Positions 9,069 through 23,546 of a DNA stretch of 64,000 nucleotides are shown in pieces (position 1 is the first letter of the stretch; every line of letters starts with the position of its first letter). Under the pieces are notes generated by a model. That model was given only the letters and a program-made list of their open reading frames with translations, ran no database searches and was not told the origin of the DNA. This DNA comes from Paludisphaera soli (GTDB lineage: Bacteria > Planctomycetota > Planctomycetia > Isosphaerales > Isosphaeraceae): assembly GCF_011064595.1 (NCBI RefSeq), contig NZ_JAALJI010000007.1:1-64000 (forward strand), given 5' to 3'. The position numbers and the translations under genes were made by a program.

Positions 9069-9539
9069 GACCAACCTAGCCTGCGAAATCCGGGCCGTGC
9101 AACCTACATCTCACACGGATTCTTAGACAGGGAGGGGCGAGAGCGGCACCGGGCGACCGAATACGCCTCGGCTCCAAAATCCTTGTGAAAAGATCTTGCG
9201 TGCGTGTCTGGCGTGATCCAGGCGCCCGGAATCCGCATGCCTCGATTGCCGACGGCCGTCGCTTCCAAGCCTCACGGATCGAATCGGATCGAGAGGCGTC
9301 GGAGCCGACCGTCGCGCCTCCGGCCCACGCGCGGGGCGGGATTCGGAGGCTCCCGCCGTCGGCCGCGATGACCACCTGCGGGAAGTCCGAGCGGGCCGAA
9401 GCGGCGAGGGCCCCTTCCGGGCCGACGCGGAGCATCGCTCGATGCCTACGTCCCGAACCTCGCGCAAGATGACCGGAATCGACGCCTGGGATCCGTATCG
9501 CGATGTGAAATCGACGGGTCCCTTGCATGGCTATCGCCG
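9069..9539. other. leader region upstream of the retron RNA
   Basis: No gene is supported. The stretch holds the right end of the IS5 remnant and presumably the promoter for the structured RNA and the operon that follow. I could not identify a convincing promoter; planctomycete promoters are poorly defined. Confidence 0.45.
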
Positions 9540-9809
9540 GTCTACTAGAAAAGATCCTGGAGACGCCGAGAAGTCCTGGAAGGTCTCTTCTAGCTCGGTG
9601 CCCTGCACCGGGGCGGCGTTGCGCCGCCCGAGTTTTTCGCCGAACATCCGTCACAACGAAGGCTGTTTCAGACTCGCTTCTCGGTGGGAGTACCCCTCCC
9701 GGCGGGGCGGGTCTGGGACAACCCCGCCGGACGGGGTTCCGCCCCGCCGGGAGGGGTACTCCCACCGGCGAGTCAGAGAGCCTTCGATGTCCCAGGTCTT
9801 GTGGTAGAC
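9540..9809 (+). ncRNA. candidate retron msr-msd RNA
   Basis: The 270-base segment folds on paper into the parts of a retron RNA, in the usual order. An a1/a2 duplex pairs 9540-9545 with 9804-9809, 9551-9554 with 9797-9800, 9556-9560 with 9792-9796, and 9579-9587 with 9776-9785 (one bulged G). Four bases after a1 comes TAGC (9591-9594), whose G at 9593 would be the branch nucleotide. Two msr-like hairpins follow: CGGTGC-CCT-GCACCG (9596-9610) and GGGCGGCG-TTG-CGCCGCCC (9611-9629). A spacer leads to one very long hairpin at 9671-9774, the msd. The a2 arm begins two bases after it. The RNA ends about 100 bases before the first gene of an operon whose last gene is a retron-type RT. All pairing was done by eye; no folding energy was computed. 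Confidence 0.75.
9671..9774 (+). repeat. long msd-type hairpin
   Basis: The outer stem of 7 bp (GACTCGC 9671-9677 with GCGAGTC 9768-9774) has a small asymmetric loop. The main stem is 28 bp without mismatch: 9683-9710 pairs with 9739-9766, beginning GGTGGGAGTACCCC. At the top is a further 7-bp stem, AACCCCG 9720-9726 with CGGGGTT 9732-9738. No T run follows, so it is not a typical intrinsic terminator. In the retron model this is the template copied into msDNA. Confidence 0.85.
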
Positions 9810-9898
9810 GGACCGACCAGGCGGGGGCGGGCGGCCCGGATGATCTCCGGGTCGCCCGCCCTTTCGTACCGAATAAACCGACGATCAACCCCGCGAGC

Positions 9899-9904
9899 GG
9901 AGGC
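9899..9904 (+). promoter_or_regulatory. ribosome binding site deciding the GTG start at 9911
   Basis: The purine block CGGAGG ends a few bases before GTG at 9911. The open frame extends upstream through the structured RNA, so this site is the main reason to place the start at 9911. Confidence 0.6.
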
Positions 9905-9910
9905 CTTTCC

Positions 9911-12900
9911 GTGGACGCGCCGATCCGCCTGGAGGACGTCCGACGCGCCTGGGAAGCGAGGGACCCGGAGACGGTCGCCCTCGTCGTCGACCTCGCCCGC
10001 CAGTCCGACCCGGAGCCCGAGACGCCCCTCCGCGACGGGGCGCCGACCTTCGCCTCGTACCTGGCCGAGGTCCGCTCGCGAGAGTTCCGGCGGAAGCCGC
10101 CGGAGGAGCAGGCGAGCGAACGGCGGTCCAGGCTCCGGGCCCTGGAGTCTCCGGACGCCGAGGTGCCGCCGCCGGACCGCCTGAAGCTGCATGCCGTCCT
10201 GGAGGAACTCTGGGCCGACGGCGGGCCCGTCGCCCGGTCGTGGTTTCTGCGGATCGTCGCCGAGATCCCGGCGCGATACGGGGCGTGGAAGGCGATCAAG
10301 CGGATCTTCAAGGAGGCCGAGGCCCGCGGCGACGCCGAGGTCTTCGCCGCGCTCGCGGCTCGGTTCGACGAACTCCAGGCGGGGGAGGGGGGCGAGGTCG
10401 GCCGGGGCACCCTGGCCTATCTCCGACGCCGCGGCTGGAGGGCCCTCCGCCGGGCGGCCGAGCGCCTCCCCTCCTCGTACGCCGACCTCGCGTGCGACCT
10501 GCTCGCCCGCTACGGCGAGGACGCGCGATGGCCGCAGACCTGGATCGCCAACCACATCTTCTTCCACGAGGCCGGCGGCTACGGCCGCGACGGCTTCCGC
10601 CGCTCGCCGGCCGTGCACTCGGGCGACCTCCTGAAGCATCGCGCCTACCCCGACCTCTGGAGGCGCACCCCGAGGCCCCTGTTCGGGCTCCTGGAACGGG
10701 CCCGCAGCGACCGCGTCAGGAAGTTCGCGGCCGAGGCCCTGAAGGCCGACTTCCGGGCCTCGCTGCGCGAGGTCGAGCCGTCGTGGGTCGCCCGGCTGGT
10801 GGGCGTGCGGAGCGGGCCGGTCGACGCGTTCGTCGTCTGGGTCCTGTCGAACGTCCCCAGGTTCGAGCAGTCGGCGTTCCGCGCGCTCGGCCTCCACGAA
10901 GCCGTCCTGACGTTGTTCGACTCGCCGTCGGACGAGGCCCGCGCCTACGCCGCCGGCTACGCCCGGACGCACGCCCGCGACCTGCCGGTCGACGAGCTGA
11001 TCCGCCTGGCGGACAACGACCATGCGGCCGTGAGGAGGCTCGCCGCCGACCTGCTCGGCGACCGCGACCCGCGGGGCGAGGTCGGGCTGGAGGCCTGGGG
11101 CCGGCTCCTGAACACCGAGCACGGCTCGAAGCTCGCCGCCGACGTCATCCGCAAACACTTCGGCGCGAAGGAGCTGACGCCCGACTGGTTCCGGGCCCAC
11201 CTCTTCACCGAGAATCCCGAGGCCTTCGAGTTCCTCAAGGGCTCGCTGGCGAGGATCCATCCGACCGAGAAGCTGGGGGCCGCGTTCTTCCGCGACCTGA
11301 TCGGCGCGCTCAAGGGGGTGGACGACGACGCCTCGCAAATGGTGGCCCCCTTCGCCCTGGGCGAGCTGGCGAGGTTCGACCTCGACGCCATGCCCCCCGA
11401 CTTCCTCCGCCGACTCCTGGTCGACCCGACGACCCGAGTGCAGGCCGCCCGGTGGGTCGACCAGGGGAAGCTCAAGGCCCCGTCCGTCGGGATCGACTTC
11501 CTCAAGGCGCTGGCCTATGAGCCCGACTTCGCGGCCCATCCCTGGATCGAGGAGTTCCGCCGGACCGGGCCGGACTGGGCTCGCAACCTCGCGTTCGACC
11601 AACGGCTCGCCGACCGCGTGCTGGTCTGGCTGGCCGACGTCCGCAAGGTCCCGCCGGCCGACATCGGGTTCGACTGGCTCATGACGCTGGTGGCCCGATC
11701 CGAGGCGGGCTACCACGAGTTCGCGGTGGGCGTGCTGTCCAAGGGCTACGTCCCGGCGGACTTCGCCACCCGCGAGGCCGCCGGCGGCCCGGCCCCGGCC
11801 GCCGGCCCGGTCGACCTCAAGGGGGCGTCGTTCCTGTTCACCGGCAAGATGGCGACCCTCAAGCGGAAGGACGCCGAGGACCAGGTGAAGGCGTCGGGCG
11901 GGACGGTTTCCGGGGGCGTCACGGCGAAGCTCCATTATCTGGTGATCGGCGACGACGGCTCCCCCCTCTACGGCCACGGCAAGAAGGGGGACAAGCAGAC
12001 CAAGGCCGAGTCGCTCAACGCCTCGGGCGCGAACATCAAGATCATCTCCGAGACGGCCTTCCTGAAGATGCTCGCCGCGGGCGTCCAGGAGGTTTCGGCC
12101 GACGCCACCCTCGCCGGCTGCGAGCGACTCTGGGAGATGGCCACGGCACCCGGGCCGGCCGACGCCCCCAAGGCCCGTTTCGCGATCGAGTACCTGCTCA
12201 GGCATCACCCCGACGTCGCCCTGGCGAAGACGGAGAGGCCCGTCGACCCGGGCGCGGAGATCCCCGCCGAATTCCTCGCGTTCGCGCGGGTCGAGCCGCT
12301 CTTTTACGAGACCCGCAGGCCGCTCCGCGACTTCGCCCTGGAGCTGGCGCGGTGGGAGTTCGCCCGCTGGGCCCCGCCGTCCGAGGCCCTGGTGAGGCTG
12401 GCCGAGAGCCCCCACGCGGACGTCCGCCGGTTCGTCGCCGACGCCCTGCTCGCCGACGGATCGCCCGAGAATCGCCGGTTCCGGATCGACCCCGAGGGCC
12501 TGAGCCCCGAGGCCGCGTACGCCTTCTGCGAGTCGGCCGACGCCTCGACGCGGGAGCTGGGCATGCAGCTCGTCGGCCGCTCCCCGAGGCTGAGGGCCCC
12601 GGAGGAGCTGTTCCGCCTGACTGAGAGCCCCGACCGGCGGATGCGCGCGTTCGCGATCCGGGCCCTGTGGTCGCTCTACCGCGACCGGGGGACCACGGCC
12701 GGATGGAAGCCCGCGCCGCCGCCGGCGCCGACGATCGGCGCGGGGGCGAGGAAGGCCGCGACGGCCGCCGCCGAGGCCCGAGGCACGGGCGCCCCGGCCC
12801 GCCCCGACCGCCTCCCGGCCGAGCCGAAGGGGATGTGGCTCATGCTCCGGCGCTCGCTGTTCGAACTCCCCCCGCCGAGGCCCGAGAAGGGGGATGCGGC

Positions 12901-13138
12901 CGGGGGCGCGGAAAAGCTCAGGCCCTTGCCCGCGGGCCAGGCGAAGCTCGCCCTGATGGAGGTCATGCGCGACCTGGCCGTCGAGGACGTCGCGTTCGCC
13001 AGGGGCGCCCTGCCGCTGATGGAGGAATTCCTGCCGTCGCGGGGGAGGAGCGAGCGGTCCGCCTGCCTGGTGGCCGTCACCCGGATCCGCCACGCCTGGC
13101 CCGAACTCCGCCGGGAGATCGAGGGGGAGTCCCCGTGA
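9911..13138 (+). CDS. BRCT-domain helical-repeat (ARM/HEAT) protein, retron operon gene 1
   Basis: The 1075-residue protein is largely alpha-helical repeats, with segments such as PVDELIRLADNDHAAVRRLAADLLGDR and ALVRLAESPHADVRRFVADALLAD in the style of HEAT/ARM repeats. A BRCT domain at about residues 634-720 begins DLKGASFLFTGKMATLKRKD, continues VKASGGTVSGGVTAKLHYLV and ends IKIISETAFLKML; BRCT domains bind phosphopeptides or DNA ends in repair proteins. A Pro/Ala linker at about 926-968 separates the C-terminal helices. There is no signal peptide. Its TGA overlaps the GTG of the next gene by four bases, so translation is probably coupled. In retrons with ARM and SWIM partners the ARM protein is assumed to be part of the effector or sensor; its exact role is unknown. 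The reading frame is intact over 3.2 kb. Confidence 0.85.
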   Translation: MDAPIRLEDVRRAWEARDPETVALVVDLARQSDPEPETPLRDGAPTFASYLAEVRSREFRRKPPEEQASERRSRLRALESPDAEVPPPDRLKLHAVLEELWADGGPVARSWFLRIVAEIPARYGAWKAIKRIFKEAEARGDAEVFAALAARFDELQAGEGGEVGRGTLAYLRRRGWRALRRAAERLPSSYADLACDLLARYGEDARWPQTWIANHIFFHEAGGYGRDGFRRSPAVHSGDLLKHRAYPDLWRRTPRPLFGLLERARSDRVRKFAAEALKADFRASLREVEPSWVARLVGVRSGPVDAFVVWVLSNVPRFEQSAFRALGLHEAVLTLFDSPSDEARAYAAGYARTHARDLPVDELIRLADNDHAAVRRLAADLLGDRDPRGEVGLEAWGRLLNTEHGSKLAADVIRKHFGAKELTPDWFRAHLFTENPEAFEFLKGSLARIHPTEKLGAAFFRDLIGALKGVDDDASQMVAPFALGELARFDLDAMPPDFLRRLLVDPTTRVQAARWVDQGKLKAPSVGIDFLKALAYEPDFAAHPWIEEFRRTGPDWARNLAFDQRLADRVLVWLADVRKVPPADIGFDWLMTLVARSEAGYHEFAVGVLSKGYVPADFATREAAGGPAPAAGPVDLKGASFLFTGKMATLKRKDAEDQVKASGGTVSGGVTAKLHYLVIGDDGSPLYGHGKKGDKQTKAESLNASGANIKIISETAFLKMLAAGVQEVSADATLAGCERLWEMATAPGPADAPKARFAIEYLLRHHPDVALAKTERPVDPGAEIPAEFLAFARVEPLFYETRRPLRDFALELARWEFARWAPPSEALVRLAESPHADVRRFVADALLADGSPENRRFRIDPEGLSPEAAYAFCESADASTRELGMQLVGRSPRLRAPEELFRLTESPDRRMRAFAIRALWSLYRDRGTTAGWKPAPPPAPTIGAGARKAATAAAEARGTGAPARPDRLPAEPKGMWLMLRRSLFELPPPRPEKGDAAGGAEKLRPLPAGQAKLALMEVMRDLAVEDVAFARGALPLMEEFLPSRGRSERSACLVAVTRIRHAWPELRREIEGESP

Positions 13139-16100
13139 GCGCGACGATCGACTACACCATCCCTTTCCGAGGCCGACTCAAGGCGATCGCCGGCCTCGGG
13201 TCGACGATCGCCCTCGTCGCGGGCCATCCCCAGGGCCGGCCGACGGGGCTGCACTGGGTGCACCTGGGGGACGACCGCCCCCGATCGGCGCGGGAGGACC
13301 TCCCCGGGGGGCTCGCGATCGTCGCCGATGGCGACGCGGTCTGGGTCGCCGGGACCGACGGCCAGGTGTACCGGGCGCCGCTCGAAGGGGCGCCGAAGCC
13401 GGTCGGGCCGAAGTTCGACGGCGAGCCGAAGGCCCTCGTCCTCCTGTCCGACGATCGGCTCGGGGTCCTGGTGGGCCGGGAGGTCAAGGTCCTCGCGCGG
13501 AAGGACGGCAAGCTCCGGCAGTCGATCGATCTGCCCGAGCCGGGCTCGGCCGTGGCGAGCGACCCGGCGGGCCGATGGATGGCGGTCGGAACGAGCGGCG
13601 GCCTCGTCTCGATCTTCGAGTCCGAGACGTCGCCCGAGTTCGTCGCGGGGGACTCCGCACGGCTGCACGAGGGGGAGGTCACGGCGATCCTCTTCGAACG
13701 CGAGGACCTCCGCTTCTTCTCGGCCGGCGCGGATAGGAAGCTCCTCACGACGCACGCCCGGGGGAGGCTGGAGCCTGAAGACAAGGGGCGGAGCAACAAC
13801 CACGCCGACCGCGTGACGGCCCTGATCTGGGGGCCGGAGGACCGGCTCCTCTCCGGCGGCCTCGACGGCGCGGTCAAGTCGTGGCCCCGAACGGGCGGGG
13901 TCAAGCCGACGACGCACAAGGACGGCGTGGTGGGCGTCGTCGCTCTCGCCCTGGTCAAGCGGCATGGGCGCGACCATCTGGTCGTCGGGGGCGTGGACGA
14001 CACGCTCCGCACGCTCGCGATCGACGCGACGGGGAAGCCGGCGGCGCTCCTGCTCCGCGGCCGCGACGCGATGGCGTGGACGACGGCCGATCTCGCGGGG
14101 GACGACCCTCGCGCCCGCGAGGCCGCCATCCGCCGGCTCGCCGAATTCGACGACGCGGAGTCGCTCCCGCTGCTGGCCGAGCAGGCCACGCGCGATCCCG
14201 ATCACGGGCTACGCCTCCTCGCCGCGCGGCTCCTCGGCGAGTCGGACGAGGCACGGGCTTCGACGCTCCTGGAAGGGCTGCTCTCGCACGCGGAGGCCGC
14301 CGTCCGCTCGGCCGCGTTCGAGGGCCTGAGGCGACGCGAGGGCGAGGCCGACCTGCGCATCCTGGACCTGGCCCTCAAGGCCGAGAAGCCCGAGATCGGC
14401 ACGCTCGCCGTCGAGGCGTTGGGGAGGCTCGCAACCGGGGACGAAGAGGCGCTGAGCCGCCTGACGAGCTCCCTCGCGGCCAAGACCCCGGAGGTGCGGC
14501 AGGCCGCGCTCGTCGCCCTCGAATCGGCCTATCCGGCCGACTCGCCCGAGGCGGACCTGGTCGCCCTCGCGGCGCGACACGCCGACGTGAGGGGGGCGGC
14601 GCTCCTCCGGCTGTCCGCCCGCAAGTTGCTGGGCGACCCCGCCGCGCAGTCCGCCCTCCGCCGCCGGACCGAGGACCCCGACGCCGACGTCCGTCGGGTC
14701 GCCTTCCTCCTGTCGCTCGGCACCCGTCCGAACCTGCTCCGGGCCCTGCGATCGCGCGACCCCGAGCTGGAACGTCAGCTCGCCGACCTCGAAGGCCGCG
14801 CCGAGGCGCCGGCGCCCGTCGAGCCCGCGAAGAAGGGCCGTGGGGAGCCGACGGAGAAGGCCGCGGCGCTCTCGGCCGAGGACCTGTCGCCGCTGCTCCA
14901 GGCCGCGGCCGCGCGCCCCCTCGACACGAGCCTGCGGGGCGCCCGCGGGCTGGCCGTCCTGGGCGACCCGAGGGCCTTCGGCCTCCTGCTGCAGCTGAGT
15001 CGCGAGGAGGACAAGGACGCCCGCGTCGAGGTCTGCCGCGCGATGGCCGCCCTGGACGACCCCCGCGCCGCCGAGCGGCTGAGGTCGCTTCTGTACGACC
15101 CGGAGCTGATCGTCCGGGATGCGGCGTTCACGGCCCTGGCGCGTCTCTTCGAAGGCGAGCCGCTGAAGGCGGCCGAGGCGGGGCTGTCCGCCCCGTCGGA
15201 GAACGTCCGCCAGCGGGGCTTGCAGCTGCTTGTCGCCGAGGCGCGCAAGGCCCGGTCCCCCGGGCCGGAGGGTCGCGTCTCGACGATGCTGGCCGACGCC
15301 CTGAACGACTCGATCGCGAAGGTCCGCGCCGAGGCGTTCAAGGCCGCCCTCAACCTCAAGTTCGGCGGGGGAGGCGCGTCGACCCTGAGGTTCGCCATGA
15401 GGAGCCGGCACGCCGACGTCCGCCGCGAGGCGATGACCGAGGCCATGGCGAGCGTCGGCGAACCGGGCGGTTGGGAGGTGGTCTACGAGTTCCTCAACGA
15501 CCCCGACCCCACGCTGCGGGCCGAGGCGTACGCCTTCGCGGCCAAGAAGGCCAAGGGCCTGGAGACGCTCGACGCGGCGCTAGGCTCGCGATACCCCGAC
15601 CTGCGCAAGGCGGCCGTCGAGGGGCTCGTCAAGAAGCACACGGCCGCGGCCCAGAAGCTCCTCGCCCGCGCCCTCGACGACGAGGAGGAGGACGTCCGCC
15701 TCGCCGCGCTTGAGGCCCTCGTCGAGGCCGATTCCCTCCCGATCCTGAAAGCGGCGGTCGGGAACGCCCACGCCGACGTCCGCCTCCGCGCGGCCTGCGC
15801 CCTGGCCCGCCACGGCGACCCAGCCGCCCTGGAGCCGTTGCTCGCGATCGCGACGGAACCCGAGCCCCCCGAAGCGGAGGGGAAGAAGGAGTGGCTGGCC
15901 CAGGCGGAGTCGGCGCTGCTCGGCCTCGGCAGGCTCGAGGACGCCTCCGCCCTCACGGTCCTCATCCCCCTGATCGACGGCCCGCACGAGCCGATCCGCC
16001 GGGCCGCCGCGCGGGCGCTGGCCTCGGTCGCCCCGCCGGACCGGCCCGCCGCGCTCCGCGATGCGATGAGGCACCACGACCCGGCGGTCCGCGACCTCGC

Positions 16101-19100
16101 GGCGTTGGGGCTGGCCTATCTCGGCGACGCCTCGGCCGGGCCCCTCGTCCTCTCCGACTCCGCGAAGTCGCTCGGGCCGGACGAGAAGATCGCGGCCGCC
16201 CTCGCCCTGTCGGGCACGGCGGCCGGCGACGGGCATCTCGTCGCCTCGCTCGACGACAAGGACGACACGGTGCGGGCCCGGGCGCTCCTGCTGCTCCTGC
16301 TGATGGAGTGGAAGGCGCCCCGCGAGGGCCTGGCGCCCGGGCTGGCGGCCCTCGCCAGCCGGGAGGCCCGCACGCGGCTCGTCGCGGCCGAGGCCCTGGA
16401 GTCGATGGCCGACCCGGCGGAGTTCGCCGCCTTCCTCCTGAGGTTGATCAACGACCGCGGCGAGAAGCCCGCCTGGACGATCCCCGGGGCCGTCCTGGAT
16501 GACCTCGCCGAGCTGCTCTTCCACGCCCCCCCCCGGCTCCGCGCCCGCTCCTCGGAGCTGCTCCGCCGCCTCGAGGACGACGAGCAGGACGGATGGGACC
16601 AGGCCTGGTCGATCCACGCGACGCGTTACGCCGCCGAGATCGCCGCCCTGCGCAAGGCCGCGAAGGCGCGACTCGCCCGCAAATCCGAGCACACCCCGGA
16701 GAGCCTCCGCGAGCTGGCCTTCGGCGCCTACGTGGGGCTCGTCCGCGAGCAGGGCGGGTCGCGCCGGAAGGGCCCCGACCCCGCCGTGCTGCGAGTCAGG
16801 CAGGCGGCGCTAGGCCGGCTCGCGGCCCTGGCCAAGGCCGACCCCGCGGCCGCCGAGCCGGTGCGCCCGGTGCTGGTGCAGGCCCTCGGCGACCCGAACG
16901 CGGCGATCCGCCTGGCGGCCTTCGAGGCGTTGCCGCATCTGGGCGTCGAGCCCGCGGCCCTGGCGGCCGAGGCGCTGGGGACCGGCCACCTGGACCTCGG
17001 CGTGAAGGCCCTGGAGATCCTCGCCTCGGGCGGGGCCACGGCCGAGGGGCGCCGCGTCCTCGACGCGGCGATGCTCTCGCGCAGGGACGACCTGGCGATC
17101 GAGGCGGCCCGGCTCCTCATGGGGCGCGAAGGGATCGCGCCGGTCGCGAGCCGGGCGATCGAGGGCGCCTACGAGCCGCTCCGTAAGGCCGCCGTGTCGT
17201 GGCTGCTCGACGAGTACGACAAGGGCGAGGAGGCGCGAAAGGCCCTCCGGGCCGCTCTCTCGTCCCGCCACGAGACCGTCCGCGAAGCAGCCGCGATGGC
17301 CCTGGCCGCCAAGAAGGACCCCTCCGCGTTCGAAGCCCTGGTCGACCTGATGAAGGCGGCGCCCTGTCCGGAAATCGCCCGCCGCTCCATGAACGCCCTC
17401 GTCACGCTGGGCGACCCCCGCGCCGCGGGGGCCTTCCTCGACCGCGTGGAGGACGACCCGTCGGGGACCGCGCCGGCCGACGAGCTGATCCGGGCCGCGG
17501 GCGGATTCGCCCTCCCCGAGATCGCCGACCGCCTCTTCGCGCTCTGGGACAAGGACCGAAAACGCGGCCCGGCGATCCAGCAGGCGCTCCTGGCGGCGAG
17601 CGGCCACGACCAGAGGATCGAGGACCCCGAGGACGAGTCCCCCGATCGCGAGTGGGAGGCGAAGCAGCGCCCGAGGCGTGACGAGATCCTGGCCCGGCTC
17701 CTCGCCCGGGTCGCGGCCCCGGGGGAGAAAGGCGCCCTCGCTCTCCTCCGGGCGGCCCGGTGGTCGAGGTCGAACGAGGTCGACCCCGTCCTCGCCGGCC
17801 TGGTCGCCCACCCCGACGAGACGCTCCGGCGGGGGGCGATCGAGGCGATCGGCTGGCGGCTCCGCAGGCGATCCGGCGACCCGACCGCCCTGGTGAAGGC
17901 GTTGGCGTCCAAGGACCCCGTGGCGCAGCTCCTCGCGGCCGAGGGCCTGGCCCGGGTAGGCCGGCCGGAGGGGCTCTCGGTGCTCCTGGCGAGCGTGGAG
18001 TACGTCGCGGAGCTGCCCCTCCGCCGCCGGGCGGTCCTGGCGCTCGGCGAGCTGGCCGACGAGCGGGCCGCGGAACTCCTCATCAAGCTCGCCTCCGACG
18101 ACGCCCACGCCCTCAACGAGGCCGCGGCGGAGGCGATCGGCCACCTCGGGCGATCCAGGCGGTCCGACGAGGCCTGGCGCCTGCTGGAGCGGCTCGCGCG
18201 GGGGAGCGGCGGCGTGGCCTGCCAGGCGCACAAGGGGCTCCGCTGGCTCGACACTCCTTCGGCTTGGGCGGTCCTCCGCAGCCGCGCCGCCGACCACTCG
18301 GCGCCGTTCCAGGAGGTGGCCGTCGAGCAGCTCGCCTTCAACGACGACCCGGCCACCCGCGACCTGTTGCTGCGGCTCATCCGCGAGGAATCGCCCTCCT
18401 CGGTCGAGGAGGCCGCCTACGCCGCGGCCCGCAAGCTTTGGGGGGCCGACGCCCTGGAGCCCGACGAGGCCCTGCTCCAGAATCCCTACCCCGAGTACGT
18501 CGACGAGTACGAGGAGGCGCTGAGGCGCGTCTGCGAACGTTCCTCGCCGTCGAGGATCTTCGCCATCCTCCCCTTCTGCCGGGATGACGACGTCCGCAAG
18601 GCCCTGAGGCGGGCGGTGCTCACGAGGGACGATCTCCCGGTCGACGAGGCGAGGCGCGTGATCGAAAGCGCCGATCCGGTCGTCGCGGGCCTCGCGGCCC
18701 ACGTCCTGGGAAGGGCCGGGGCGGCGTCCGAGGGGGCTTCGGCATCGGTGGCCTCGGCCCTGTCGCGCTGGTGGACGACCTGGCTCGAACGGCGGCGGAC
18801 CTCCCCGGCCCGGGTCGATCCCGACGAGGATTCGCCAGATCGGCCGGTCGTCGAATGCCTCGGTTACCTCGCCTGGTCGGCCGGCCGGCTGGGCGTCGGG
18901 GGCGAGACCCTCGCGGCCATGACGAAGGTCGCGGGCGCCGATCGAGACGCGGCCGACGTGCGGCGGTCGGCGGTCGAGGCGCTGGCGTCTTCGCCCGCGA
19001 GCCGGTCCGACGTCGCCGCCCTGGCGGGTGCGGCCGAGACGCTGGACCCCGAATTCCGCGCCCTGGCGGCCCAGGCGGTCGCCGCGGACGCCCCCGAGCG

Positions 19101-19497
19101 GGTCGTCGCGCTGGCGGAGCGGCTGCTCGCCGACCGCTCGGCCTTCGGCCGGCTGGCGCGCGACGAGTCTCCTCGACTCTCCGGCCTGCTCCGGGACGCG
19201 GCCCGGCAGAGCCACTATCAGGGCGTGGCGCTGCCGTACCTGATCAGGGCCGGCGACGTGGAGGGCCTCGCCGCCGTGGCGGGGGACCGCTCGCTCTCCG
19301 AGGCCGCGCGGCTCGGGGCGATCGAGGCCATCGCGGCCGTAGCGACCGACCCCGCCGACGAGGCGCTCCGCAAGGTCGGCCTCGACGAACGCGAGGACGA
19401 GGCCCTCCGCAAGGCCGCCTGGCGGGGGCTGCGACGGTCGAAGCGCGCGAGGGAGCCCAGGCGGCCCAGGCCCAGAACCCCCAGGGGGCGCGGATGA
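13135..19497 (+). CDS. giant beta-propeller plus HEAT/ARM repeat protein, retron operon gene 2
   Basis: The 2120-residue protein has two parts. Residues about 1-320 look like a WD40-type propeller with blades such as VTAILFEREDLRFFSAGADRK and VTALIWGPEDRLLSGGLDGA. From about 322 to near the end there is an almost unbroken HEAT/ARM solenoid (for example DPRAREAAIRRLAEFDDAES and LRKAAVEGLVKKHTAAAQKL), with a charged linker at about 555-580. The C-terminus is basic (RRPRPRTPRGRG). No catalytic motif is visible, so a scaffold or sensor role is likely. GTG at 13135 overlaps the previous stop (GTGA), and its own stop overlaps the next start (ATGA at 19494). The frame is intact over 6.4 kb. It may be the main ARM component, gene 1 being a paralogue with an added BRCT domain. 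Confidence 0.88.
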   Translation: MSATIDYTIPFRGRLKAIAGLGSTIALVAGHPQGRPTGLHWVHLGDDRPRSAREDLPGGLAIVADGDAVWVAGTDGQVYRAPLEGAPKPVGPKFDGEPKALVLLSDDRLGVLVGREVKVLARKDGKLRQSIDLPEPGSAVASDPAGRWMAVGTSGGLVSIFESETSPEFVAGDSARLHEGEVTAILFEREDLRFFSAGADRKLLTTHARGRLEPEDKGRSNNHADRVTALIWGPEDRLLSGGLDGAVKSWPRTGGVKPTTHKDGVVGVVALALVKRHGRDHLVVGGVDDTLRTLAIDATGKPAALLLRGRDAMAWTTADLAGDDPRAREAAIRRLAEFDDAESLPLLAEQATRDPDHGLRLLAARLLGESDEARASTLLEGLLSHAEAAVRSAAFEGLRRREGEADLRILDLALKAEKPEIGTLAVEALGRLATGDEEALSRLTSSLAAKTPEVRQAALVALESAYPADSPEADLVALAARHADVRGAALLRLSARKLLGDPAAQSALRRRTEDPDADVRRVAFLLSLGTRPNLLRALRSRDPELERQLADLEGRAEAPAPVEPAKKGRGEPTEKAAALSAEDLSPLLQAAAARPLDTSLRGARGLAVLGDPRAFGLLLQLSREEDKDARVEVCRAMAALDDPRAAERLRSLLYDPELIVRDAAFTALARLFEGEPLKAAEAGLSAPSENVRQRGLQLLVAEARKARSPGPEGRVSTMLADALNDSIAKVRAEAFKAALNLKFGGGGASTLRFAMRSRHADVRREAMTEAMASVGEPGGWEVVYEFLNDPDPTLRAEAYAFAAKKAKGLETLDAALGSRYPDLRKAAVEGLVKKHTAAAQKLLARALDDEEEDVRLAALEALVEADSLPILKAAVGNAHADVRLRAACALARHGDPAALEPLLAIATEPEPPEAEGKKEWLAQAESALLGLGRLEDASALTVLIPLIDGPHEPIRRAAARALASVAPPDRPAALRDAMRHHDPAVRDLAALGLAYLGDASAGPLVLSDSAKSLGPDEKIAAALALSGTAAGDGHLVASLDDKDDTVRARALLLLLLMEWKAPREGLAPGLAALASREARTRLVAAEALESMADPAEFAAFLLRLINDRGEKPAWTIPGAVLDDLAELLFHAPPRLRARSSELLRRLEDDEQDGWDQAWSIHATRYAAEIAALRKAAKARLARKSEHTPESLRELAFGAYVGLVREQGGSRRKGPDPAVLRVRQAALGRLAALAKADPAAAEPVRPVLVQALGDPNAAIRLAAFEALPHLGVEPAALAAEALGTGHLDLGVKALEILASGGATAEGRRVLDAAMLSRRDDLAIEAARLLMGREGIAPVASRAIEGAYEPLRKAAVSWLLDEYDKGEEARKALRAALSSRHETVREAAAMALAAKKDPSAFEALVDLMKAAPCPEIARRSMNALVTLGDPRAAGAFLDRVEDDPSGTAPADELIRAAGGFALPEIADRLFALWDKDRKRGPAIQQALLAASGHDQRIEDPEDESPDREWEAKQRPRRDEILARLLARVAAPGEKGALALLRAARWSRSNEVDPVLAGLVAHPDETLRRGAIEAIGWRLRRRSGDPTALVKALASKDPVAQLLAAEGLARVGRPEGLSVLLASVEYVAELPLRRRAVLALGELADERAAELLIKLASDDAHALNEAAAEAIGHLGRSRRSDEAWRLLERLARGSGGVACQAHKGLRWLDTPSAWAVLRSRAADHSAPFQEVAVEQLAFNDDPATRDLLLRLIREESPSSVEEAAYAAARKLWGADALEPDEALLQNPYPEYVDEYEEALRRVCERSSPSRIFAILPFCRDDDVRKALRRAVLTRDDLPVDEARRVIESADPVVAGLAAHVLGRAGAASEGASASVASALSRWWTTWLERRRTSPARVDPDEDSPDRPVVECLGYLAWSAGRLGVGGETLAAMTKVAGADRDAADVRRSAVEALASSPASRSDVAALAGAAETLDPEFRALAAQAVAADAPERVVALAERLLADRSAFGRLARDESPRLSGLLRDAARQSHYQGVALPYLIRAGDVEGLAAVAGDRSLSEAARLGAIEAIAAVATDPADEALRKVGLDEREDEALRKAAWRGLRRSKRAREPRRPRPRTPRGRG

Positions 19498-21371
19498 GCG
19501 ACGAGACCCCGACTCCCGAAGTCCCGCCCGACGAGACCCCCGCCCCCGAGCGGACGGAGGTCCACCTCGCCTACGAGGGGGCCAGCCGCCTGATCAGCTC
19601 CGAGGGCTCGGCCCGGCTCGCGCTCGCCGCCAACGTCCTCCGCGACCCGGCGCGGTTCGACGGCGTGATCCGGGACCCGATCCGCTTCCGCGAGGCCATG
19701 TCGGCCCTCCACGCGGTCGTCGCGAGCGACATGCGGTATCGGCCCAAGGATCGCACCGCCTACCTAGCCTACACGAGGATGAGGCGCGACTCGTCCGGGC
19801 TCGACGCCTGGCAGGCGCAGCGCGAGTATTTCTCGTGGCTCCTGCGGAACGACCCGCTGGCGTTCGTGATCCTCGACCCGGTGGTGACGGTCCACCCCGA
19901 CCAGGTCCTCTTCGAGGTCTTCAGCAAGGACGAGGGGGCTTACGCCAAGCTCGGCGTCGACCGCGAGTGCTTCGCCTCGGAGGCCGAGCCGACTTACGGC
20001 ACCACGAACGTCGACTTCAGCCCGTCGCTGTACCGGGGCCTCCAGCAGATGCGCTCTTACCGGGAGACCCGCCTGACCATCGGCCGTGAGGGCGTGGGCC
20101 TCGCGACGAAAACTGCCGGCGAGGTCCTTGAGAAGACGATCCGCGTCCCCGACTCCTGGCTCCGCGGGTTCCTCCAGGTCCAGTCGTCCGCCGCCCTGCC
20201 GAGGGACTCGTTCTCCCTGAGGCCGATCGACCTGTACAACGCCCTGAGGCACCTGCGGCTCCACGCCGACGAGAAGGGCCGGCGCCGGGGACTCCGGGTC
20301 GAGCTGATGCCGGGCCGGCCGCCGCTGCTCGTGCTGGAACCGTGGAACGAGGTCGTCCCGACGACGGCCGGGGCCTACAAGGGGAAGTCGGCGAAGGTCG
20401 CCCGCGTGTGGGGCCGTCGCCGCCTGATGCTGCTCCAGAGGTTCCTGCCGTTCGTTGAGGAGGTCGACGTCCATCTCCTGGGGAGCGGCCTGCCCAGCTT
20501 CTGGGTCCTCCGCGGCCGGGGGATGACGCTCACGATCGGGCTCACCGGGTTCACCGCGGCGAACTGGTCGCAGGCCCTGAATTTCGACCTGCTCCTGCCC
20601 CGGAAGGCCGACCCCGGCGGCAAGTCGCTCGACGCCGTGCTGAACCACCTGGAAGGCCGCTGGTCGGCCGGGGCGGGGGAGCTGGCGAAGGCGACGAAGC
20701 TCTCGTGGCCCGCGCTGACGGAGGCGCTCCAGCTCGGCTGCCAGCAGGGGCGGATCATGTACGACATCGCGGCCGACGTGTACCGCCTCCGCCCCCTGAC
20801 CGACGCGCCCCTCGACCTCGTGCGGCTCGAGTACCGCGACCCCCGAGAGCGCCAGGCTCACGACCTCCTCGTGCGCCGGGGCGCGGTGGCGATCGTCGGT
20901 GAGAACCGCGTCCCGGGCGCCGGCCTGGAGCTGACGGGACGGGTGACGGTCGAGGAGGACAAGCGGGAATACCGTCCGCAGATGCTCCTGGCCGACGAGG
21001 GGCAAGTCACGAGAGCGGACTGCACCTGCGCCTTCCACCGCAAGCAGGGGCTGAAGGCGGGGCCGTGCGTCCACCTCGTCGCCCTGAGGCTCGCCTACGC
21101 CGCCCGCGAGTCCGACCGCGCCTCGGGGCGCGCCCCGGCCGAGACGATCACGGCCGAGACCCGCGCCTTCAGCCGGCGCGACGACTCGGGCGAGGACGTC
21201 TATCAGGTCACCCTCGATCGCCGTCGGCTGAAGGTCCGCTGGGGACGCGCCGACGGGCCCTCGCGGCTCCAGACGCTCGCCTTCGACTCCGTCGACGAGG
21301 CGAGGGCCGCCTACCTCGACCGCGTCGCCGACCTCACCGCCCGCGGATTCCTCGACGCCTTCGCAGGATAA
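19494..21371 (+). CDS. SWIM zinc-finger protein with C-terminal WGR domain, retron operon gene 3
   Basis: The 625-residue cytosolic protein ends with a SWIM-type zinc site, Cys510-x-Cys512 and Cys525-x-His527 (in CTCAFHR and GPCVH). After it, at about residues 568-622, comes a WGR-like domain (VYQVTLDRRRLKVRWGRADG, then FDSVDEARAAYLDRVADL). A segment around residues 380-440 (WSAGAGELAKATKLSWPALT, then MYDIAADVYRLRPL) reads like a winged helix, so the middle and C-terminal layout fits the WH-SWIM partner of ARM-type retrons. SWIM and WGR domains usually bind nucleic acid; WGR domains in PARPs sense DNA ends. The ATG overlaps the previous stop, and nine bases separate its TAA from the RT start. 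Confidence 0.87.
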   Translation: MSDETPTPEVPPDETPAPERTEVHLAYEGASRLISSEGSARLALAANVLRDPARFDGVIRDPIRFREAMSALHAVVASDMRYRPKDRTAYLAYTRMRRDSSGLDAWQAQREYFSWLLRNDPLAFVILDPVVTVHPDQVLFEVFSKDEGAYAKLGVDRECFASEAEPTYGTTNVDFSPSLYRGLQQMRSYRETRLTIGREGVGLATKTAGEVLEKTIRVPDSWLRGFLQVQSSAALPRDSFSLRPIDLYNALRHLRLHADEKGRRRGLRVELMPGRPPLLVLEPWNEVVPTTAGAYKGKSAKVARVWGRRRLMLLQRFLPFVEEVDVHLLGSGLPSFWVLRGRGMTLTIGLTGFTAANWSQALNFDLLLPRKADPGGKSLDAVLNHLEGRWSAGAGELAKATKLSWPALTEALQLGCQQGRIMYDIAADVYRLRPLTDAPLDLVRLEYRDPRERQAHDLLVRRGAVAIVGENRVPGAGLELTGRVTVEEDKREYRPQMLLADEGQVTRADCTCAFHRKQGLKAGPCVHLVALRLAYAARESDRASGRAPAETITAETRAFSRRDDSGEDVYQVTLDRRRLKVRWGRADGPSRLQTLAFDSVDEARAAYLDRVADLTARGFLDAFAG

Positions 21372-21380
21372 TCATCGCCC

Positions 21381-22730
21381 ATGGCCATCCAGCGGCAGAC
21401 CGACCCCTCCGATCTTTGGCGCGCGATCATCCAGGCCGGCGGGATCCAGCCCTACATCGACGCCCAGCTCGCCGAACGCGGCTTCCTCGTCGCCCGCCGA
21501 GAGACCGACGGCCTGTCGGAACGCGAGCTGGCCGACTACAAGAAGTCGCTGAAGGCCGAGGCGCAGGAGCGAGCCCGCCTGAGGCGCGAGGCGTGGGCCG
21601 CCTACCGCGCCGAGCACATCGTCCACCTCGGTGACGGCGTCTACTGGAATGACGAGCCCGGCCCCGACAAATGGGACCTCCCGAACGCCGAGGAGCGGGC
21701 CGCCGAGAACGAGCTGCCCCCGCTGGACTCGCCCCGCCAGCTCGCCGACGCCCTGGGCCTGACGATCCCCCAGCTCCGCTGGCTCGCCTTCCACCGCGAG
21801 GCCGCCACGCGGATCCACTACCGGCGCTTCACCATCCCCAAACGCGACGGTTCCGAGCGCGCCATCTGGGCCCCGATGCCGCGCCTGAAGCGGGCCCAGC
21901 ACTGGATCCTCCGGAACGTCGCCGAGAAGCTGCCGGTCCACGGCGCGGTCCACGGCTTCGTCGCCGGCCGGTCGATCCTCTCCAACGCCTCCGCCCACCA
22001 CGACCCCAAGGTCGCCGTGCGGATCGACCTGAAAGACTTCTTCCCGACGGTCACCCTGCGTCGCGTCAAGGGACTCTTCCGCAAGGCCGGCTACCGCGAG
22101 CACGTCGCGACGCTGCTGGCCCTCATCTGCACCGAATCGCCCCGCGAGATCGTCCAAAACGAGGGCGCGACCTACTACGTGGCCCTAGGCCCGAGGTGCC
22201 TCCCCCAGGGGGCGCCGACGAGCCCGGCGCTCACCAACGCGCTCTGCTTGCGGCTCGACCGGCGTCTCTCAGGCCTCGCCCGCCGCCAGGGCTGGCGCTA
22301 CACGCGCTACGCCGACGACCTCACCTTCAGCCGACCTTCGGATTTCGGCGGTCCGCCGGCGATCGGCAAGCTGCTCGGCTCGGTGCGTCGGATCGTGGAG
22401 GCCGAAGGGTTCGCGGTCCACGACGGGAAGACCGCGATCCGGCGGCGGGGCGGGCGGCAGGCGATCACGGGCCTCGTCGTCAACGGCGACCGGCCCCCTC
22501 GCGCCACCCGGGAGTTCAAGCGAAACCTCCGCGCGGCGATCCATAATCTCGAGTCCGGCAGGGCGACGCCGGAGGCCGAGCCGCCCCAGGTGCTCGTCGG
22601 CCGGGCGGCGTTCGTCGCCATGAGCGACCCCGCCCTGGGCCTGTCGCTCCTGGACAGGCTCTCGCGAGCCACCGAGCGGGATGGGTCCGGCGACGACTCC
22701 CGATCGGAGCCGCCTCGGCCCGAATCCTGA
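21381..22730 (+). CDS. retron-type reverse transcriptase, operon gene 4
   Basis: The 449-residue RT has the retron hallmarks: NASAHH at 202-207 (the NAxxH box), DLKDFFPTV at 216-224, LPQGAPTSPALTN at 274-286, the catalytic YADD at 310-313 and ITGLVVN at 362-368 (the VTG box near the thumb). A helical N-terminal extension of about 100 residues precedes the fingers. The closest pattern I know is that of myxobacterial retron RTs. No maturase, HNH or integrase domain is present, so it is not a group II intron RT. It would prime at the 2' OH of the branch G in the msr RNA and copy the msd. It is the last gene of a four-gene operon; the RNA cannot lie directly upstream because only nine bases are free there. 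Confidence 0.93.
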   Translation: MAIQRQTDPSDLWRAIIQAGGIQPYIDAQLAERGFLVARRETDGLSERELADYKKSLKAEAQERARLRREAWAAYRAEHIVHLGDGVYWNDEPGPDKWDLPNAEERAAENELPPLDSPRQLADALGLTIPQLRWLAFHREAATRIHYRRFTIPKRDGSERAIWAPMPRLKRAQHWILRNVAEKLPVHGAVHGFVAGRSILSNASAHHDPKVAVRIDLKDFFPTVTLRRVKGLFRKAGYREHVATLLALICTESPREIVQNEGATYYVALGPRCLPQGAPTSPALTNALCLRLDRRLSGLARRQGWRYTRYADDLTFSRPSDFGGPPAIGKLLGSVRRIVEAEGFAVHDGKTAIRRRGGRQAITGLVVNGDRPPRATREFKRNLRAAIHNLESGRATPEAEPPQVLVGRAAFVAMSDPALGLSLLDRLSRATERDGSGDDSRSEPPRPES

Positions 22731-22779
22731 ACGGCGTAAAACGGCCCCCGGGGCGATGTCGCGAGCTGTGGTCATACCA

Positions 22780-23546
22780 GAAGCGCGACCGGTCGCCGCG
22801 GAGAGTTTCTCGATCGGGTCCAGCCAGGGCGAGCGGGCCGGCGGCCGGATGAACGAGACGTTCTCCGGGCCCTCCAGCGTCCCCGCGGCGTGGACCCCCG
22901 CCTCGTCCCCGATCCAGGCCGCGTGGAAGTGGGGGCGAGTCGGTGGGGGGGGCTCGGCGAGGAAGACGTCGATCGCCTCGGCGTCCAAGCCCTCGCCGGC
23001 GTAGGTGCTCCCGCGGTTCGAGTGGGCCAGCAGGCCCGACTCGGGGAGCCGGCGGGAGGCTGCCATCTCCAGGGCGTCGACGACCAGGCGGCCGTCGTTC
23101 CGCCCGGACATTGACCAGCCCACGATTCGTCGCGGGTGCAGGTCCTCGACCGCGGCCAGGTCCAGCCAGCCCTCGCGGGTCGGCACGTAGGTGACGGCGG
23201 CCGTCCAGGCCCGATCCGCCTCGCCCGGCTCGAACCTGCGGCCCAGGAGGTTCTCGGCGACGGGGCGTCCGTCGCCCGAGTCGGTCATGAGGCGGAACCT
23301 CCGCCCGACCTTCGCGGCGATCCCATGGCGACGCATCAGCTTCGCCACCGTGTCCACGCAGCAGGGCACGCCCCTCGCCGTGAGCTCGGCGTGGACCCGC
23401 GGGCTGCCGTAGCGGCCCTTCCTCGCCCAGTGGGCTTCACGGGCGGCAGCGGCCAGGACCCCGATCCGAAGGGCCCTCCCGCTCGCAGGCCTCCCCCGCA
23501 AGCCGTAGTAACCGCCGGGCGAGACGCACTGGACCCGCCACATCAT
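22780..23546 (-). pseudogene. IS3-family OrfB transposase remnant
   Basis: The minus strand encodes the rve core of an IS3 OrfB: YGSPRVHAELTARG, TYVPTREGWLDLAAVEDLHPR, IVGWSMSGRND and LLAHSNRGSTY. Both visible catalytic Asp positions are lost: WTTDITYV is WTAAVTYV and HSDRGS is HSNRGS. The C-terminal third near 22780-22870 is scrambled. It is inactive and lies directly after the RT gene, on the opposite strand, so it marks the 3' edge of the retron operon. Confidence 0.85.

Follow-up and report, generated by a model that had tools for sequence, protein, structure and literature searches.

A type XIII retron of Paludisphaera soli and the possible role of its RNA stem as an exchangeable recognition cassette

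We describe a four-gene operon and an adjoining non-coding RNA (ncRNA) found in a 64,000-nucleotide stretch of the genome of the planctomycete Paludisphaera soli (contig NZ_JAALJI010000007.1, positions 1 to 64,000; referred to as the window). We regard it as virtually certain that this locus is a type XIII retron with an msr-msd RNA. Comparison with related loci revealed that the long stem of the msd, the part expected to be copied into DNA, can differ entirely between RNAs that are otherwise much alike. The explanation that we favour, with moderate confidence, is that this stem constitutes a swappable recognition cassette of the retron.

The operon and its assignment to type XIII

The operon (9911-22730) is composed of four complete open reading frames, tightly packed head to tail on the same strand: genes A, B and C, followed by the reverse transcriptase (RT) gene. 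Genes A and B share a GTGA overlap at 13135 and genes B and C an ATGA overlap at 19494, while 9 bases separate the stop codon of gene C from the start of the RT gene. The first-pass annotation had reported four abutting or overlapping undamaged frames, and its overlaps and spacing agree with these data.

All four proteins matched type XIII models of PADLOC, which bears out the type proposed in that annotation. Gene A matched HEAT-ARM_XIII PDLC02921 (1132.6 bits) and gene C matched SWIM_XIII (646 bits), both over nearly their full length, and gene B matched HEAT-ARM_XIII PDLC02919 (2023.7 bits over residues 5-2109). The type of the RT is assigned on profile scores (522.8 bits with RT_XIII, again over nearly the full length, and 315 bits with the next-best model). 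The locus therefore has a type XIII RT with HEAT/ARM and SWIM partners in one operon, the same set (RT_XIII, SWIM_XIII and two HEAT-ARM_XIII proteins) that makes up the PADLOC system retron_XIII. The RT contains the RVT_1 domain (Pfam) and both motifs general to retron RTs, NAxxH (NASAHH, region X) and a VTG-like box (ITG), together with QGAPTSPALTN and YADD; each of these boxes had been read correctly from the sequence. The N, A and H of NAxxH, the Y, D and D of YADD and the T-G pair are invariant in 42 RT homologues. A position outside the retron clades had been named as evidence against a retron; we found instead that RT_XIII was the best model and that the solved structures nearest to this RT belong to retron RTs (Ec86, E 1e-38).

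None of the partner proteins looks like an enzyme; they resemble proteins that handle DNA. Gene A encodes a plain HEAT solenoid by fold (AlphaFold model, pLDDT, i.e. predicted local distance difference test, 84.7), in which Pfam detected HEAT and BRCT (E 1e-4); the RFC1/LigA-like BRCT domain occupies residues 636-715 and is among the better-kept parts in 40 homologues. In gene B, Pfam recognized a WD40/propeller and 15 HEAT_2 stretches. The gene C protein is modelled as a sliding-clamp fold (pLDDT 82.5): all 50 of the top 50 PDB matches listed by Foldseek were PCNA or beta clamps (E down to 1e-6), with a template modelling score of up to 0.67 by target length and a root-mean-square deviation of 6-10 angstrom for the monomer model, and clamps also dominated the named matches in BFVD. 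The clamp-like part is followed by a winged-helix-like region, SWIM and, in the four-gene form, WGR; both SWIM and WGR were weak matches in Pfam, and the CxC...CxH of SWIM is conserved. RFC1-type BRCT and WGR domains bind 5'-phosphorylated DNA ends, and a complex of the A, B and C proteins may therefore hold or inspect the ends of the multicopy single-stranded DNA (msDNA).

A search with the SWIM protein in named genomes identified about 45 four-gene loci. They occur in Planctomycetota, Myxococcota (Nannocystis, Minicystis), Desulfobacterales, Thiotrichaceae and Acidobacteriota, and nearly all of them are syntenic within the limits of their contigs. No SWIM match was found in phage records. 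The conservation of the four genes in other planctomycetes, where their order is kept, and in Myxococcota had been suggested as a check and was observed within these limits. Homologous loci devoid of the partner genes and of any conserved upstream RNA, which had been named as counter-evidence, were not what we found, since relatives keep both. The BRCT and propeller proteins had been taken for extra components. This was wrong: both are standard in the four-gene form and have PADLOC models, and the BRCT-HEAT and giant propeller-HEAT proteins define one form of type XIII. A shorter form, in which there is a single HEAT-ARM protein, is present in Planctomycetota and, judging from the SWIM search, probably also in Cyanobacteria, Bacteroidota and others. 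P. soli itself carries a second, short-form type XIII locus on another contig (L032, G000:C163:1-8513), which encodes HEAT-ARM, SWIM and an RT 50% identical to that of the window.

Some further observations concern the individual genes. An alternative ATG start of gene A at 9527 lies upstream, in or before the ncRNA. The 3' end of the RT gene is overlapped by an IS3-like integrase frame (HTH_21, rve) on the opposite strand (22269-23546, minus), which extends downstream. In Tautonia sociabilis (L044, 12799-15114) the RT aligns only as a fragment after the SWIM gene, and this locus is possibly disrupted.

The ncRNA and probable selection on its DNA copy

The ncRNA located 5' of gene A (Table 1) has the parts of a retron msr-msd, i.e. 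a1 and a2 arms, a predicted branch guanosine and an msd hairpin. The a1 segments CCTGG, GGTC and CTA pair with TAG, GACC and CCAGG of the a2 arm, and the helix so formed (helix 1) covaries in relatives, with 91.4% pairing. Arm a1 ends at TAGC, the commonest branch context of retrons (PMC6868368). A longer minimum-energy pairing of 9540-9560 with 9791-9809 is specific to the window and was set aside because its sequence is not kept in relatives; the a1 arm that they conserve is 9575-9593. The folding energy of the hairpin was -232 kcal/mol, compared with -167 +/- 7 for shuffled sequences (z -9.35), and a search of Rfam with the hairpin gave no family at the gathering score. The hairpin RNA proposed upstream of the operon was thus confirmed, but the msDNA span given for it (9671-9774) was too narrow: the predicted msd is wider (approximately 9655-9804), and the distance from AAGGC to the a2 arm is at least 147 nt.

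A covariance model (R1), built from eight planctomycete upstream regions including that of the window, detected the RNA ahead of gene A at further loci; in the window, which is one of its eight source sequences, it scored 286.7 bits at 9556-9845. Weak but significant matches occurred near the SWIM and RT genes of short-form loci (L037 14721, L038 14759, L039 13058, and approximately 11640 in L100, L103 and L114), and this is a homologous RNA in a different position. R1 found no RNA in the second locus of P. soli (L032).

Among 102 distinct copies of the RNA, compensatory changes on both sides were observed in 69 of the 81 pairs. Standard pairing accounted for 95.5% of the pair cells, compared with 37-42% when the partners were slid; the alignment was fitted to R1, which biases this percentage upward, and the slid controls offset the bias only in part. 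Parts of the RNA differed in their guanine-uracil (G-U) pairs, which amounted to 165 of 2214 standard pairs (7.5%) in the helices expected to stay RNA-only and to 6 of 4418 (0.14%) in the helices of the predicted msd (Fisher p 1e-71, although cells from related copies are not independent). Since G-U can pair in RNA but not in a DNA copy, this deficit is what selection on msDNA would leave, and we are highly confident that the msd stem is selected as DNA. The deficit also speaks, indirectly, for the making of a 2'-5' branched msDNA. A DNA cruciform would also be nearly free of G-U in its stem, and the element might in principle be a DNA-level inverted repeat (a regulatory cruciform or a protein-binding repeat) instead of a reverse-transcribed RNA. 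We consider this very improbable, because the msr helices tolerate G-U, the a1 and a2 arms pair across the whole element, TAGC is conserved and the element tracks the retron RT.

Table 1. Features of the type XIII retron in the window (+, forward strand; A7, alignment of the RNA)
Feature	Position	Strand	Remarks
Retron ncRNA (msr-msd), 5' of gene A	9573..9821	+	Fold, R1 and covariation
a1 arm	9575..9593	+	Ends at TAGC 9591-9594; expected branch guanosine 9593
msr hairpins, RNA-only helices	9594..9636	+	Helices 2-4 of A7, 94-100% paired, G-U tolerated
Predicted msd, reverse-transcribed region	9655..9804	+	msDNA of about 150 nt; ends by analogy with known retrons
Hypervariable msd stem, 5' arm (30 bp)	9682..9711	+	Helix 8 of A7, 99.3% paired, almost no G-U
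msd stem, 3' arm	9739..9767	+	Helix 8 of A7
a2 arm	9805..9821	+	Pairs with a1; conserved GTAGAC start
Gene A, HEAT solenoid with internal RFC1/LigA-type BRCT	9911..13138	+	GTG start; 1075 aa
Gene B, WD40 propeller followed by long HEAT array	13135..19497	+	GTG start; 2120 aa
Gene C, sliding-clamp-like fold, winged-helix-like region, SWIM zinc finger, WGR	19494..21371	+	ATG start; 625 aa
RT gene, type XIII retron reverse transcriptase	21381..22730	+	ATG start; 449 aa

Dispersed RNA copies and replacement of stems

The RNA is closely tied to the operon. In a set of 95 genomes from a single family, identified as Gemmataceae because it includes Limnoglobus and Zavarzinella, the RNA was present in 29 of the 30 genomes that encode the four-gene SWIM protein and in 1 of the 65 that do not; in a second sample it was present in 10 of about 11 genomes with the operon and in none of the 48 without. 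The genome of the window contains one version of the RNA, while in one genus of Gemmataceae (g23) many versions accompany a single operon: genomes of this genus with the operon carry from 7 to at least 20 scattered copies each. A deeper search of one of them listed 28 matches, one of which is an antisense echo of the palindromic stem.

The RNA may also be encoded far from its operon. A local search for hairpins near the Myxococcota operons yielded nothing apart from locus L084, and this prompted the finding of copies in trans. In Nannocystis exedens DSM 71 (G357:C1) there are two tandem RNA copies at about 9.28 Mb (L226 3870-4472), and the stretch between AAGGC and a2 measures at least 148 nt in one of them. 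The type XIII operon occupies 3.65-3.68 Mb of that contig, 5.6 Mb away. The RNA and the operon of Minicystis rosea are likewise far apart (2.75 and 0.87 Mb). At L084 (6110-6395) the ncRNA is placed about 0.9 kb 3' of the RT gene and not ahead of gene A; the end of the contig is near, and a second locus is possible there.

Such scattered copies might be retrotransposed or mobile debris of one retron RNA, as has been proposed for N. exedens with its duplicated msr/msd repeats (PMC6868368), with no function that the copies perform jointly. The copies of genome G374 share no flanking homology, and a few copies are decayed (e.g. L224, L242), as this explanation would have it. Most of them, however, retain the full-length structure, with the a1 and a2 arms, TAGC and a perfectly paired stem, in spite of saturated divergence of the stems, which indicates that the copies are maintained. 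Moreover, two genomes of the same genus that lack the operon (G038, G056) contained no RNA copies at all. We therefore judge the debris explanation improbable.

Within one genome, the copies are 84-86% identical in the msr and 91-99% identical at the base of the stem, but the stem itself, roughly 28 bp long, shows 28-32% identity, i.e. the level of unrelated sequence; the a1 and a2 arms also vary among copies of one genome. Stems vary little in length, measuring about 30 bp in planctomycetes and about 25 bp in Myxococcota. The RNA of the window fits this pattern of divergent stems: it and that of Singulisphaera acidiphila (L027) are 17% identical in the stem and 91% in the remainder, although stem identity to two same-genus relatives is 62-67%.

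Corresponding loci were compared in 22 pairs with flanks of at least 84% identity; most of these pairs are drawn from three related genomes and are therefore not independent. The identity of the stem was at least 90% in 9 pairs and 50-90% in 1, and in 12 it did not exceed 50%, compared with an average of 92% for the remainder of the RNA. The RNA of the operon itself, compared between G373 and G374, is one of the cases of a replaced stem. The key comparisons were made with finished or near-finished assemblies (G374 and G375; G373 in about 20 contigs). In the replaced stems both arms change together and their pairing is near perfect. Conversely, identical stems are carried at unrelated loci on backbones that are 79-84% alike, e.g. 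the same 28-bp stem in L261 (G374) and L284 (G375), whose backbones are 79% alike. These results make us confident, to much the same high degree as for selection at the DNA level, that stems are replaced whole between lineages. A diversity-generating retroelement was rejected as a source of this variation, since the RT belongs to the retron clade and the stems are replaced whole, on both arms.

Possible recognition by the stems, proposed mechanism and relation to known retrons

The stems of multicopy genomes are enriched in dyads. Their mean inverted-repeat score of 4.69 exceeded that of dinucleotide shuffles (3.61; z 10), and a score of at least 5 was reached by 42% of them, compared with 3.2% of flanking genomic 24-mers. 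The corresponding control with a1 arms comprised 9 usable sequences and was not relied on. Dyads are typical of the sites of dimeric DNA-binding proteins and of modification sites. One of them, CTCCTGA-N4-TCAGGAG, is common to stems of three genomes (L213, L237, L279 and L282, one of them mismatched), with differing spacers. It was rejected as a host operator, since its exact sites outside the RNA copies were one conserved terminator and one intragenic site. The motif occurred once each in 24 viral contigs, which by our own estimate is near the number expected by chance.

The stem may alternatively have no sequence-specific job. If the presence of a long perfect DNA duplex were all that counted, its sequence could drift, and fold-back copying would replace both arms and leave inverted repeats behind. 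This would account for the joint change and near-perfect pairing of the arms and for stems of one genome differing as much as random sequence. Free drift does not predict, however, that the stem should be at least 90% identical in 9 of the 22 locus pairs, or that unrelated loci should combine identical stems with backbones 79-84% alike, and the palindromes of multicopy genomes exceed the genomic background by far. We regard this possibility as unlikely, yet less so than debris.

Several results weigh against the stem being a recognition cassette of a defence system. Fold-back copying could also create small palindromes. With the dinucleotide control, dyad enrichment was not significant in Isosphaeraceae (the family of P. 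soli) or in Myxococcota at the available sample sizes. An exact search of viral contigs with three of the stems gave no match, a match to phage sequence being what CRISPR-like acquired spacers would show, and one stem searched in 14 genomes was found in RNA copies only, apart from single matches with one or two mismatches. Two motifs, when searched in host genomes, occurred only in RNA copies, the terminator, the intragenic site and scattered mismatched sites. Furthermore, no known toxic enzyme domain was detected in the protein of gene A (fold and Pfam) or of gene B (Pfam only), and the literature searched contained no msDNA, phage or toxicity data, or any experiment, for type XIII.

On balance we still prefer the swappable cassette, and a mechanism of the following kind can be envisaged. 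The RT would prime at the guanosine of TAGC and synthesize about 150 nt of msDNA, which would terminate in a long DNA hairpin. The particle of RT and msDNA would bind the clamp-like/SWIM/WGR protein C together with the HEAT proteins A and B and keep the complex inactive. Binding, modification or cleavage of the hairpin by a phage protein would free the complex, whereupon the cell would be stopped. The stem would be the recognition part, swapped as a cassette on a constant backbone, and this arrangement would allow a lineage to change the target of its retron or to hold several versions of it. An anti-phage role of the system is likely, in view of the retron class as a whole. That the stems serve sequence-specific recognition is put forward more tentatively. 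The same caution applies to the wider proposal of a single RT-effector operon that works with many dispersed RNAs. The stems of these RNAs would be exchangeable cassettes with operator-like or modification sites, and lineages would diversify by swapping them. What the stems recognize and which protein acts as the effector are the least certain points.

Precedents for msDNA as a sensor exist. For Retron-Asa1 and Squ1 the trigger is a phage GATC methyltransferase, and GATC is present in their ncRNA (PMC12548924); what retron-Kva2 senses is a phage helix-turn-helix protein in its msDNA-bound state (PMC13405049); for type XIII, sensing is what we infer. These three systems have one RNA each and other partner proteins, unlike multicopy type XIII. 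Long msDNA of about 160 nt is likewise known from Retron-Mxa1 (Mx162) and Sa163, whose RTs have an N-terminal extension and whose branch context is CAGC (PMC6868368), compared with TAGC here. In the literature searched, neither multicopy or trans-encoded RNA nor exchangeable stems have been described for type XIII.

The N. exedens retron Ne160 (Retron-Nex1), known since the 1990s, has duplicated msr/msd repeats with no RT within a kilobase (PMC6868368). The tandem RNA copies that we found in this organism are probably the Ne160 repeats, judging from the organism, the repeat structure and the similar length, and the type XIII operon may supply the missing RT, for which a candidate is thus offered. 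The loss of G-U pairs, in turn, provides a bioinformatic test of DNA-level selection that is applicable to other retron families. Retrons have so far been described as one RNA, one RT and an effector. If true, a multicopy, partly trans-encoded RNA whose stem is swapped as a whole would represent a new logic for changing the recognition of a defence system.

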